From NCBI RefSeq assembly GCF_010501075.1, contig NZ_QVMN01000003.1, positions 324,292 to 388,291 on the forward strand: a stretch of DNA of 64,000 nt, written 5' to 3'. The position numbers and the translations under genes are program-made. The notes beneath the pieces are model-generated. The model was not told the origin of the DNA, ran no database searches, and saw only the letters and a list, made by a program, of their open reading frames with translations. This document shows, one piece after another, positions 21,810-43,086 of the stretch; position 1 is the first letter of the stretch; every line of letters starts with the position of its first letter. The DNA comes from Dysgonomonas sp. 25 (GTDB taxonomy: Bacteria; Bacteroidota; Bacteroidia; Bacteroidales; Dysgonomonadaceae).

Positions 21810-22181
21810 CACACACACACACACACACACACGAAATATAATAAATATTTCGGATTAATCCAAGGTTTTAAGGGAAAAAGTTACTTCGCCCTGCGGGCAG
21901 TTACTTCGTGCTTTGCACAGTTACAAGTTACAAGAAATAACTTGCGAGCTGTTGTATGGCTTTGCCCCCACTCGTCACTCGTAACTTGTAACTCGTCTAC
22001 TAAAAGATATGCTTGTGTTAATGTCAGGGGTATATCCGGCTGCGACAGCCATACCTACCTCCCCCCAGCCCCCTCCGCGAGAGGGGGAGCGAGGGGCTGT
22101 CTTTCAGTTAACAGCAGGCCCCCTCAATCCCTTGAAGGGGGAAGTATATCATCCTCTTCTATCAACAATAGAACTTTTGTA
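21810..22181 (+). repeat. FISUMP leader core, copy 2 with (CA)11 tract
   Basis: Inverted relative to copies 1 and 3 and nearly identical to copy 1 over about 370 bp. The dinucleotide tract is 21810-21832, one unit shorter than in copy 1. Confidence 0.85.
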
Positions 22182-22246
22182 GGGACACACCTGCGTGTGC
22201 GCCCGCGAATCGATATATCGGGCAGACACATAGGTCTGCCCCTACA
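22178..22246. repeat. Two-hairpin palindromic element, copy 2
   Basis: The perfect hairpin GGGCAGAC/GTCTGCCC lies at about 22220-22241. The other hairpin is partly decayed (CACAC/GTGTG remains at 22186-22198). Terminal TGTAGGG and CCCTACA arms are present. Reversed relative to copy 3. Confidence 0.75.
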
Positions 22247-29298: not shown

Positions 29299-29368
29299 TG
29301 TAGGGGCAGACCTATGTGTCTGCCCGATATATCGGTTTGCGGGCGCACACCCAGGTGCGCCCCTATAA
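29299..29368. repeat. Two-hairpin palindromic element, copy 3
   Basis: Hairpin GGGCAGAC/GTCTGCCC with loop CTATGT and hairpin GGGCGCAC/GTGCGCCC with loop ACCCAG, inside TGTAGGGGC/GCCCCTATA ends. The first hairpin is identical to those in copies 2 and 4. Confidence 0.8.
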
Positions 29369-40445: not shown

Positions 40446-41816
40446 ATGAAGGATATACAAAACATATATTTCATTGGTATAGGCGGTATCGGCATGAGCA
40501 ACCTCGCCCGTTACTTTATGGCAAAAGGGAAACAGGTTGCCGGCTACGACCGTACGGAAACACTTCTGACGAAAGAATTGACGAAGGAAGGCGCAAGCGT
40601 CCATTACGAGGACGATACGGCGCTTATCCCCGGGGCGTTCAAGAACCCCGGCAATACATTAGTCGTTTATACGCCTGCTGTCCCTGCCGATTCGAACGAA
40701 ATGGCCTATTTCCGTGCGAACGGTTTCGATATGCACAAACGTGCCGAAGTATTGGGTTTGATAACCCAAGCGAGTAAAGCGCTTTGCTGTGCCGGAACGC
40801 ATGGGAAGACAACAACTTCGAGCATGCTCGCGCATATCCTCAAGCAATCGCATTTGGATGTCAATGCCTTTCTGGGTGGTATTCTGAAAAACTATAACAA
40901 TAACCTTTTGTTGTCCGATACGAGCGAATTTACAGTTGTTGAGGCCGATGAATACGATCGCTCGTTCCATTGGCTGCATCCATATATGGCACTCATTACC
41001 TCTGTCGATCCTGATCATTTGGATATTTACGGGACAGAAGAGGCGTATTTGAAAAGCTTCGAGCATTTTACGAGCCTTATCCAGCCCGGAGGAGCGTTGG
41101 TGCTGAAAATCAATACGAAACTTAATCCGAAGGTTTGTCAGAATGTTCGGGTGTATACCTATTCGCAGGATAAGGGAGATTTTCATGCGACAAATATCCG
41201 TATCGGGAACGGCGAAATACGATTCGACTTTGTTACGCCGAAAGAGGTTATCAAAGATATACATTTAGGCGTGCCTATAAAGATAAATATCGAAAATGCC
41301 GTTGGCTCGATGGCGTTGGCATGGTTGAATGGTGTTACGGCGGACGAACTCCGTCAGGCGATGGCTACCTTCCAAGGGGCAAAGCGTCGCTTCGATTTTC
41401 TGCTGAAAACTGACAAAGTAGTGATGATAGACGATTACGCACACCATCCCGACGAGCTGGCAGCGAGCATCACCTCGGTAAAGGCGCTCTATCCCGACCG
41501 CAAGGTGACAGGCATATTCCAGCCTCACTTGTACAGCCGTACAAAGGATTTTGCTCCCGAATTTGCTAAAAGCCTTTCGTTGCTCGACGAGCTGATATTA
41601 TTAGACATCTATCCGGCACGCGAAAAACCTATCGAGGGCGTAACCTCACAAATCATTTTTGATAAGGTTACCTGTCCTAAAACGCTTTGCCGAAAGGATG
41701 AATTATTAGCTATATTGGAGAATAAGCAAGATATAGAAGTGCTGCTAACCATCGGAGCAGGCGATATCGACCAGCTATTGCAGCCGATAAAAGAATTGTT
41801 GGAGAAAAGAAGATGA
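40446..41816 (+). CDS. murC: UDP-MurNAc:L-alanine ligase
   Basis: The first amino-acid ligase of peptidoglycan precursor synthesis. It is 456 aa. An N-terminal GIGGIGMSNLAR loop (11-22), the ATP loop GTHGKTTTSSM near 118-128, EADEYDRSF near 165-173, and the C-terminal DDYAHHPDE near 324-332 are all present. Its stop codon overlaps the start of the transposase gene that follows (ATGA at 41813-41816). In related clusters ftsQ would be expected directly here. Confidence 0.96.
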   Translation: MKDIQNIYFIGIGGIGMSNLARYFMAKGKQVAGYDRTETLLTKELTKEGASVHYEDDTALIPGAFKNPGNTLVVYTPAVPADSNEMAYFRANGFDMHKRAEVLGLITQASKALCCAGTHGKTTTSSMLAHILKQSHLDVNAFLGGILKNYNNNLLLSDTSEFTVVEADEYDRSFHWLHPYMALITSVDPDHLDIYGTEEAYLKSFEHFTSLIQPGGALVLKINTKLNPKVCQNVRVYTYSQDKGDFHATNIRIGNGEIRFDFVTPKEVIKDIHLGVPIKINIENAVGSMALAWLNGVTADELRQAMATFQGAKRRFDFLLKTDKVVMIDDYAHHPDELAASITSVKALYPDRKVTGIFQPHLYSRTKDFAPEFAKSLSLLDELILLDIYPAREKPIEGVTSQIIFDKVTCPKTLCRKDELLAILENKQDIEVLLTIGAGDIDQLLQPIKELLEKRR

Positions 41817-42358
41817 CAGAAACCCGGACATACCCGAAAAGGAAAAGCACCCGTCTGACAAAATATGATTATTCGCAGGAAGGGCTGTATTTCGTAACCT
41901 TGTGTACGCAAGGGATGGTATGTTTATTCGGTGAAGTATATGAGCGCGAAATGCAATTGAATGAAGTAGGAAGAATGGTGGAAGGGTGGTACTCCGAGAT
42001 AGAAAATAAGTTTAAAGACATTTTTTGTCATGATATGGTAATTATGCCAAACCACATGCATTTTATTGTCGAAAATATTAATTGTGAATGTGTAGGGGCA
42101 GACCTATGTGTCTGCCCGGATGATGCGGGCGAACACGCAGGTTCGCCCCTACACCTTGTCATACAATGGTTTAAAACCATGACAACAAATGAATATATAC
42201 GTGGTGTGAAAAATGGCAAATGGAAATCATTTGATAAACGTATCTGGCAGCGCAACTATTACGAACATATTATTCGTAATCAATTCGTTTGTAATAAAAT
42301 AGTGGATTATATCAACAATAATCCTTCGAATTGGAAAAATGATAAATACTATCTATGA
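41813..42358 (+). mobile_element. REP-associated tyrosine transposase (RAYT, IS200-like Y1) inside the division cluster
   Basis: 181-aa protein-coding gene of the TnpA-REP/Y1 transposase family. These enzymes nick single-stranded palindromes through an HUH motif and a tyrosine. HUH is His81-Met-His83 in MPNHMH, and the tyrosine candidates are Tyr149/Tyr150 in WQRNYYEHIIRN. Also typical are GLYFVTLCT near 24-32, QWFKTMTTNEYIRG near 118-131 and YINNNPSNW near 167-174. It appears intact. It overlaps murC and ftsQ by ATGA at both ends. Residues of about 93-114 are encoded by a palindromic element that is also found in the FISUMP leaders. It carries no IS-type terminal repeats that I can see. It is either domesticated or a recent passenger. 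Confidence 0.93.
42090..42154. repeat. Two-hairpin palindromic element, copy 4, in frame inside the RAYT gene
   Basis: Outer arms GTGTAGGGGC (42090-42099) and GCCCCTACAC (42145-42154) are a perfect 10-bp inverted repeat. Inside are hairpin GGGCAGAC/GTCTGCCC (42096-42103, 42110-42117; loop CTATGT) and hairpin GGGCGAAC/GTTCGCCC (42127-42134, 42141-42148; loop ACGCAG). The transposase reading frame passes through without a stop. Confidence 0.88.
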
Positions 42359-43086
42359 AAAAAGCCATTATCATCATCGTCATTTGTCTTATCGGAGGCT
42401 ATCTGATATTTGCGGCTGTCACTTTTCAGGATAAGCCGAAAGAAGGCGTGTGCGCGGGGCTGGACATAACAATTATCAACGAGAACAGCGAAACCTTCCT
42501 CGAAGAAAAGCAGGTCGAAAAGATGCTTGCCGAAAAAGGATTATCGCCCCAAGACAAACAGATAAAAGACATCAACACCGACGAGATAGCATCCGCTATT
42601 GCCGGCAACCAGATGATAAAAAAGGCAGAAGTATATGTCGCCAATGACAATGCGATAAAGATAAATGTCTACGAACGCACCCCTATCCTGCGCGTGATAC
42701 CCGAATCTGGCGACAGTTACTATATCGACGACGAAGGCAAACGTATGCCTCTCTCTACGCGTTATACAGCCTATCTTCCGGTGGCTACGGGAAGCATAAA
42801 AGAGCAGTTCGCGCTGGACAATCTTTACCCTTTCGCTCATTTTCTGTGGAAAGATAAATTCTGGAATGCCCAGATAGAACAGATTGTTGTCCGCGCCAAT
42901 GGAGAGGTGGAATTTATTCCGCGTGTAGGCGATCAGCGCATTATTTTGGGAAAAGTAGATGGATTTCGCGAAAAATTAGATAAATTAATGGCTTTTTATC
43001 AAAAAGGGCAAAACGAAACAGGATGGAATAAATATTCTGTTATAAATTTGAAGTACGATAAACAAGTCGTTTGCACCAAACGTTAA
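42355..43086 (+). CDS. ftsQ: Cell division protein FtsQ
   Basis: 243 aa bitopic protein: cytoplasmic basic start, one membrane helix (about 4-22, AIIIIVICLIGGYLIFAA), a POTRA-like domain (about 38-110, with VYERTPILRV at its end) and the FtsQ beta domain (about 110-243, with NGEVEFIPRVGDQRIILG). It links FtsL/FtsB to the early division proteins. The start codon overlaps the stop of the transposase gene (ATGA), so its translation may depend on ribosomes that have just read the transposase. Confidence 0.92.
   Translation: MKKAIIIIVICLIGGYLIFAAVTFQDKPKEGVCAGLDITIINENSETFLEEKQVEKMLAEKGLSPQDKQIKDINTDEIASAIAGNQMIKKAEVYVANDNAIKINVYERTPILRVIPESGDSYYIDDEGKRMPLSTRYTAYLPVATGSIKEQFALDNLYPFAHFLWKDKFWNAQIEQIVVRANGEVEFIPRVGDQRIILGKVDGFREKLDKLMAFYQKGQNETGWNKYSVINLKYDKQVVCTKR

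Follow-up and report, generated by a model that had tools for sequence, protein, structure and literature searches.

A RAYT transposase gene between murC and ftsQ of Dysgonomonas sp. 25, at an operon junction repeatedly filled by incoming genes

RAYT (TnpA-REP) genes are described, in the relevant passages of PMC8049555, as inherited vertically, present in single copy and unable to copy themselves. For one of their groups, subclass 2.4, the passages of Quentin et al. (2018; PMC6006769) that treat it give REPs lying in frame between the HUH and Y motifs as a unique feature. The gene that we analysed in Dysgonomonas sp. 25 resembles this subclass (as those passages portray it) in its HUH and Y motifs, its WQ motif, the GTAG REPs of its genome and an in-frame REP. 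It differs in being joined into the dcw operon by ATGA overlaps, and in having no further match to its own REP pattern within 12 kb outside its ORF, with up to 3 mismatches allowed. As in the E. coli REPtron (TnpA-REP), there is an HUH fold (4er8) and one full-length copy in the genome; in E. coli, however, the REPtron comprises three REPINs, according to the same part of PMC6006769, whereas here the REPIN is inside the gene. A canonical REPtron gene is flanked by REPs, whereas the only matches to this REP pattern in the window lie inside the gene and at 22179-22245 and 29300-29366. The latter two are themselves REPINs of the same family, with REPs 41 bases apart from start to start.

Rickettsia palindromic elements (RPEs) are, in the portion of PMC3733652 that concerns them, likewise palindromes in frame within protein-coding genes; unlike an RPE, the palindrome described here is a GTAG REPIN inside its presumed own transposase gene. 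TnpA-Y1 subclass 1.2, a different class of the same superfamily, concerns not this RAYT but a gene found at the same junction in another species (G003), which is like the subclass, as characterised in the passages of PMC6006769 on it, by motif alone (Y---Q--HH), and which occurs only once in its genome. None of the matches listed from the open-licence literature described a RAYT in a dcw operon or at a stop/start overlap. Neither the RAYT nor its internal REPIN is new; what is new is that Y1-HUH genes have repeatedly filled one coupled junction.

The RAYT between murC and ftsQ

The window, a stretch of 64,000 nucleotides from Dysgonomonas sp. 25 (genome G000), contains the dcw cluster on the forward strand, running from approximately mraZ (ORF from 29947) to ftsZ (45871), with genes named by order and homology. 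The features at the centre of this analysis are the following.

40446..41816, + strand: murC, UDP-N-acetylmuramate--L-alanine ligase (ORF; NCBIfam murC TIGR01082, 363.6 bits, over the cut-off)
41813..41816, + strand: ATGA, overlap of the murC stop and the RAYT start (sequence)
41813..42358, + strand: RAYT/TnpA-REP, Y1 HUH transposase, subclass 2.4 by motif (ORF, profile, fold and motifs)
42050..42061, + strand: HUH motif N80-H81-M82-H83 (no variation at N80, H81 and H83 in alignments A1 and A2)
42092..42152, no strand assigned: in-frame GTAG REPIN inside the RAYT (0 mismatches per REP; none expected in shuffles)
42308..42310, + strand: putative catalytic tyrosine Y166 of the YINNNP motif (invariant in A1 and A2)
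42355..42358, + strand: ATGA, overlap of the RAYT stop and the ftsQ start (sequence)
42355..43086, + strand: ftsQ (ORF; place in the dcw cluster between murC and ftsA; family homologues near murC)

Alignments A1 and A2 comprised 15 and 32 rows, respectively. The first-pass annotation had reported a RAYT between murC and ftsQ with an ATGA overlap on each side, and its coordinates, when read from the sequence, proved exact. The RAYT ORF encodes 181 amino acids with no internal stop. The product of the downstream gene scored 17.2 bits against Pfam FtsQ_DivIB_C (cut-off 21), its best Pfam row being DUF2621 (20.4 bits, also under its cut-off), and the name ftsQ was given from sub-threshold Pfam rows together with the position between murC and ftsA. 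Among the 48 same-strand neighbour pairs of the window, 27 had gaps of at most 20 nt and three overlapped by four bases; murC/RAYT and RAYT/ftsQ are two of those three. The arrangement is not a matter of chance, since three further species of the genus have RAYTs between murC and ftsQ, and in one of these (G020) ATGA again occurs at both ends. A Bacteroidota-type promoter pattern matched twice in the window against 1.7 matches expected, both times at a distance from the RAYT.

The NCBIfam profile REP_Tyr_transpos matched the protein in two stretches (49.8 bits, E 3e-13; cut-off 80), and the C-terminal half reached 22.4 bits against Pfam Y1_Tnp, just short of the cut-off of 23. The match falls into two pieces because the in-frame REPIN splits it, and this splitting is probably the reason why a Pfam Y1_Tnp search of the genome itself returned no match. 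The motifs NHMH, WQRN and YINNNP fit the set of subclass 2.4 (NH[IFV]H, W-Q and YIxNNP), with a hydrophobic M where the subclass has I, F or V, and it was these motifs, together with the position of the insert, that led us to place the gene in that subclass. An HUH fold was predicted by AlphaFold2 (pLDDT 84.7), and Foldseek matched the model to ISDra2, IS608 and the solved RAYT 4er8 at E values of 1.5e-6 to 4.4e-6 (4er8: E 4.4e-6, 20% identity). The loop encoded by the REPs was disordered in the model, with residues 94-101 under pLDDT 50.

Traits of an insertion sequence were not seen, as the genome holds one full-length RAYT, the copy between murC and ftsQ, and no multiple near-identical copies. 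Because the ORF abuts both neighbours, there is also no room outside it for ends of the IS200/IS605 type. Three further RAYT matches in the genome were short and fell over residues 81-136; we read them as translated REPs, and a second search yielded a single match.

The internal REPIN, which the first-pass annotation did not mention, consists of two inverted GTAG REPs (42092-42117 and 42127-42152) that correspond to residues 94-114, in frame between the HUH and Y motifs. It folds more strongly than shuffled sequences, both as DNA (z -4.8) and as RNA (z -6.1). Such internal REPs are already published, and the element is therefore not new in kind. A pattern drawn from these two REPs, with up to 2 mismatches allowed, had 47 matches in the genome of Dysgonomonas sp. 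25 compared to 0 for the reversed control pattern, indicating a REP family in this genome. The most likely function of the gene is that of a RAYT acting on the REPINs of its genome. Across the genus, 10 of 25 genomes had any match to the pattern. Four RAYT carriers (G003, G011, G024 and G004) had 0 matches, and their REPs may differ from the pattern of Dysgonomonas sp. 25.

The murC-ftsQ junction in the genus and the family

We compared the junction in a sample of 25 genomes of the genus, from 22 of which both murC and ftsQ were obtained. Where no gene lies between them, murC and ftsQ overlap by ATGA (-4) in 14 of 15 genomes, the exception being G024, which has a 15-nt gap. The overlap is thus ancestral at this junction, and the earlier proposal that an ATGA-overlapping murC-ftsQ pair had received the insertion, with the overlaps kept on both sides, agrees with these gene-free junctions. 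In family genomes outside the genus murC and ftsQ are separate, with a median of 90 nt between protein matches (n=74; distances taken by hand from those matches). Six of these distances exceeded 200 nt (211-966) and the other 68 were at most 189 nt; sequence inspection covered the six, and in them we saw no ORF that we took for a gene, the 966-nt gap of G123 containing a run of N.

A co-directional gene occupies the junction in 7 of the 22 genus genomes, in each case with more than 200 nt between murC and ftsQ. The occupant is a RAYT in Dysgonomonas sp. 25, G004 (where a DUF2750 gene follows it), G018 and G020. G003 carries the other Y1_Tnp protein (motif YVLNQEVHH, like subclass 1.2), so that Y1-HUH genes account for 5 of the 7 filled junctions. 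The remaining two occupants, neither of them a transposase, are a GH16 protein in G013 and an RHS-repeat-like protein in G011 (19.8 bits, under its cut-off). In G020 (L054/L061), ftsQ after the RAYT reads in two frames, through either a sequencing error or a real disruption.

Distances above 200 nt were found in 4 of 185 instances of nine other dcw junctions of the same genomes, compared to 7 of 22 for murC-ftsQ (Fisher p 1.5e-5); rsmH-ftsL and ftsL-ftsI were left out of this count because the short ftsL was not reliably placed. A gene at murC-ftsQ in 7 of 22 genus genomes, as against 0 of 74 genomes from the rest of the family, gave p 1.4e-5 (9.8e-5 if G123 is counted). Both comparisons count each genome as an independent sample, although the genomes are not independent. 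The genus tree requires at least six changes to account for any gene at the junction and at least three for a RAYT. From the low counts at the other dcw junctions and in the family we conclude that murC-ftsQ is a genus-specific hot spot for incoming genes.

Two of the four other dcw junctions above 200 nt hold the same gene, thioredoxin-like by eye, between murE and mraY; the related copies are in L208 (G005) and L220 (G024), which belong to two lineages of the genus tree. Between murG and murC, a 108-aa ORF with no Pfam match was seen in L216 (G018), and a seemingly decayed relative in L202 (G004) has the ending FDLKH in common with it. Four-base overlaps at ftsW-murG were seen in 12 of 20 genomes of the genus; in one genome this junction is 245 nt long and contains a short ORF, and in none does it hold a RAYT. 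Since overlaps at ftsW-murG are common and free of RAYTs, an ATGA overlap is not sufficient for a landing site. Four-base overlaps may be favoured in the dcw operon.

At the left end of the insert, four of the seven filled junctions (Dysgonomonas sp. 25, G020, G011 and G013) have the newcomer's ATG overlapping the TGA of murC, as the ATG of ftsQ does at the empty site, compared to the window rate of 3 in 48, a rate that includes both junctions at issue (binomial p 5e-4). An ATGA on the right side is present in Dysgonomonas sp. 25 and G020 as well, and two of the four RAYT carriers consequently have overlaps on both sides. The RAYT of G004 has TAATG on the left and another gene on the right, and that of G018 is separated from its neighbours by gaps of 57 and 17 nt. 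In G011 the repeat common to both ends of the insert is ATGAAAAAAG. In G003 (L207), a direct repeat of 14 bp, GGAACAAAAAATAT, lies on either side of the insert, and it is present as a single copy in the near sister G019 (L206). An outcome resembling target duplication is clear once, possible in Dysgonomonas sp. 25 and G020, and absent for the RAYTs of G004 and G018. The first-pass annotation had held that the insertion duplicated the four bases; this fits Dysgonomonas sp. 25 and G020 but fails for G004 and G018, and a four-base target duplication at the RAYT is possible. Y1 enzymes are not known to duplicate their targets.

Relationships and locations of the RAYTs

A protein tree was built from 31 of 108 distinct full-length RAYTs, without partial RAYTs and without the RAYT of G016, which has one internal stop; the groups tested were chosen after an earlier tree. 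The four RAYTs at murC-ftsQ are not monophyletic: a single clade was rejected (dlnL 177, AU p 1e-4), and with it the idea of one RAYT kept across the genus by descent. Grouping the RAYT of Dysgonomonas sp. 25 with that of G004 was also rejected (p 4e-5), and grouping it with that of G018 was not (p 0.29). The first-pass annotation had named an insert shared by sister strains as one sign of domestication; no such shared insert was seen among the four species, whose RAYTs differ and form no single clade. Because the four differ in this way, the history of the site looks like recurrent arrival or replacement, with two to four independent arrivals of RAYTs, most likely three or more.

We also compared trees of the gene before and after the REPIN, using a laxer motif filter that kept 6 of 34 rows dropped by a stricter one. 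The N-terminal halves of Dysgonomonas sp. 25 and G004 paired (support 96/90), and the C-terminal halves rejected this pair (AU p 4e-4). None of four other partners of the N-terminal half of Dysgonomonas sp. 25 was rejected (p 0.28-0.57), and a tree joining it with L071 outscored the free tree by 2.96 log units. Given these alternatives, a mosaic origin of the RAYT in the window would be a lead only. In G020, the RAYT at murC-ftsQ (L061) and that at a second site (L128) have a near-identical block of ~270 bp around the internal REP and diverged ends, which we read as probable gene conversion around the REPIN. The window RAYT compared to L032, L048 and L071 gave dN of 0.36, 0.38 and 0.32, with dS saturated, 1.42 and 2.28, respectively; five pairs of genus RAYTs without the window gene gave dN of 0.13-0.21 against dS of 0.59-2.06.

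RAYTs of the genus recur at two other sites. One is just before what seems to be a DAHP synthase gene, on its upstream side (L066, L070, L128 and, in G016, L010, the RAYT with one internal stop). At the other, L062, L063, L065 and L067 lie upstream of one gene, which we take to encode DUF5682, and L030 (G007) is ~4 kb off. The seven short gene-free junctions of these two sites have gaps of 10-53 nt and no ATGA, which rules out ATGA overlaps as the general location of RAYTs. In G007 (contig C55), the different RAYTs L030 and L063 stand ~4 kb apart on the same strand, apparently in one operon.

The genus has 12 RAYTs that are full-length and intact, and each of them is co-directional with both neighbours; this is weak evidence, because the same holds for 40 of 56 genes of the window. 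Of the 108 distinct RAYTs, 94 could be scored for both neighbours, and 61 of these were co-directional on both sides and 4 overlapped by four bases on both sides, with start codons picked automatically and leaning towards closeness. We rejected the idea that tight junctions are generally enriched in RAYTs, gaps of at most 20 nt being frequent in the window anyway. One RAYT from another phylum, L167 of Nitrosomonas halophila, apparently overlaps both neighbours by four bases (starts picked automatically).

Explanations for the arrangement and their meaning

The explanation that we consider probable is that a RAYT gene came to lie inside the dcw operon at the murC-ftsQ coupling junction, a recurrent landing site, where it took over the start of ftsQ, with ribosomes passing on to ftsQ. 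A RAYT gene would have arrived at the translational-coupling junction of this cell-wall and division operon, where in this genus small co-directional genes, Y1-HUH genes above all, land repeatedly. It would have assumed the former start position of ftsQ at the murC stop, its own stop overlapping the ftsQ ATG. Ribosomes exiting murC would then translate the RAYT and after it ftsQ, so that the operon would supply an enzyme handling the dispersed REPINs while the expression of ftsQ was maintained, and selection for ftsQ translation would account for the retained overlaps. The RAYT is most likely expressed from the division operon, and ftsQ probably relies on ribosomes that come off the RAYT; co-transcription of murC, RAYT and ftsQ, their coupling and the processing of REPs by the RAYT are what we infer from sequence. 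Points against this explanation are that only two of the four RAYT carriers have overlaps on both sides, that tight packing is frequent in the window, that ftsW-murG often overlaps yet holds no RAYT, that the short gene-free junctions at the two other RAYT sites of the genus lack ATGA, and that the non-transposase genes of G013 and G011 overlap murC in the same way as the RAYT. Overall, the locus gives the impression of a coupled operon junction that has been colonised repeatedly, rather than of one domesticated gene.

The model of the first-pass annotation, in which transposition duplicated a 4-bp target (ATGA) and the inserted gene later acquired a division role by domestication, accounts for ATGA at both ends in Dysgonomonas sp. 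25 and G020 and at the empty site, and the Y1-HUH insert of G003, whose direct repeat is present once in the near sister, is in keeping with it. We nevertheless regard it as improbable, since the pattern is missing in two of the four RAYT carriers, target duplication is not a known activity of Y1 enzymes, and RAYTs of different clades at the site mean that the genus has not retained any one gene there. The statement in the cited part of PMC8049555 that RAYT genes make no copies of themselves also counts against this model. A single ancestral insertion, since lost from most species, with surviving copies overwritten by REPIN-mediated gene conversion with other RAYTs so that their non-monophyly misleads, seems to us similarly improbable. 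It would explain the conflict between N- and C-terminal halves in Dysgonomonas sp. 25 and G004 and the common block of the two G020 RAYTs, and a deletion between the two ATGA repeats would restore the exact empty site. However, ~5 independent clean losses by our count on the tree would be needed as against a minimum of three changes, the N-terminal pairing is weak given the better-scoring alternative with L071, and G018 stands beside species with an empty site (the placement of G020 having 29% support).

Somewhat less improbable, though still unlikely, is a neutral accident in which a RAYT lodges in an operon as any other small gene might, and ATGA reflects ordinary packing. The short gaps prevalent in the window favour such an accident, as do the GH16 and RHS-repeat-like genes at the junction, but the singling out of murC-ftsQ within both the dcw cluster and the family, and the predominance of Y1-HUH genes in filled junctions, argue against it. 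An artefact of assembly or binning is very improbable: several of the compared genomes are drafts and the reading frame of ftsQ is disrupted in G020, but the window lies inside a 454-kb contig, the reading frames fit at both ends and the arrangement recurs in other assemblies.

A more speculative proposal, which we hold to be doubtful as a whole, joins these elements: ATGA overlaps in an essential operon can, in this genus, be preferred docking sites of Y1-HUH genes; the newcomer would assume the coupled start and re-create it at its own end; the flow of ribosomes would drive the transposase; the essential gene would constrain clean loss; and internal REPINs would permit swaps of parts by recombination. 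The presence of RAYTs of different clades and of a second Y1-HUH class at one junction makes the relocation of RAYTs testable, as filled sites can be set beside empty ones, and the shift of ftsQ from murC to a position behind a transposase provides a natural test of translational coupling.
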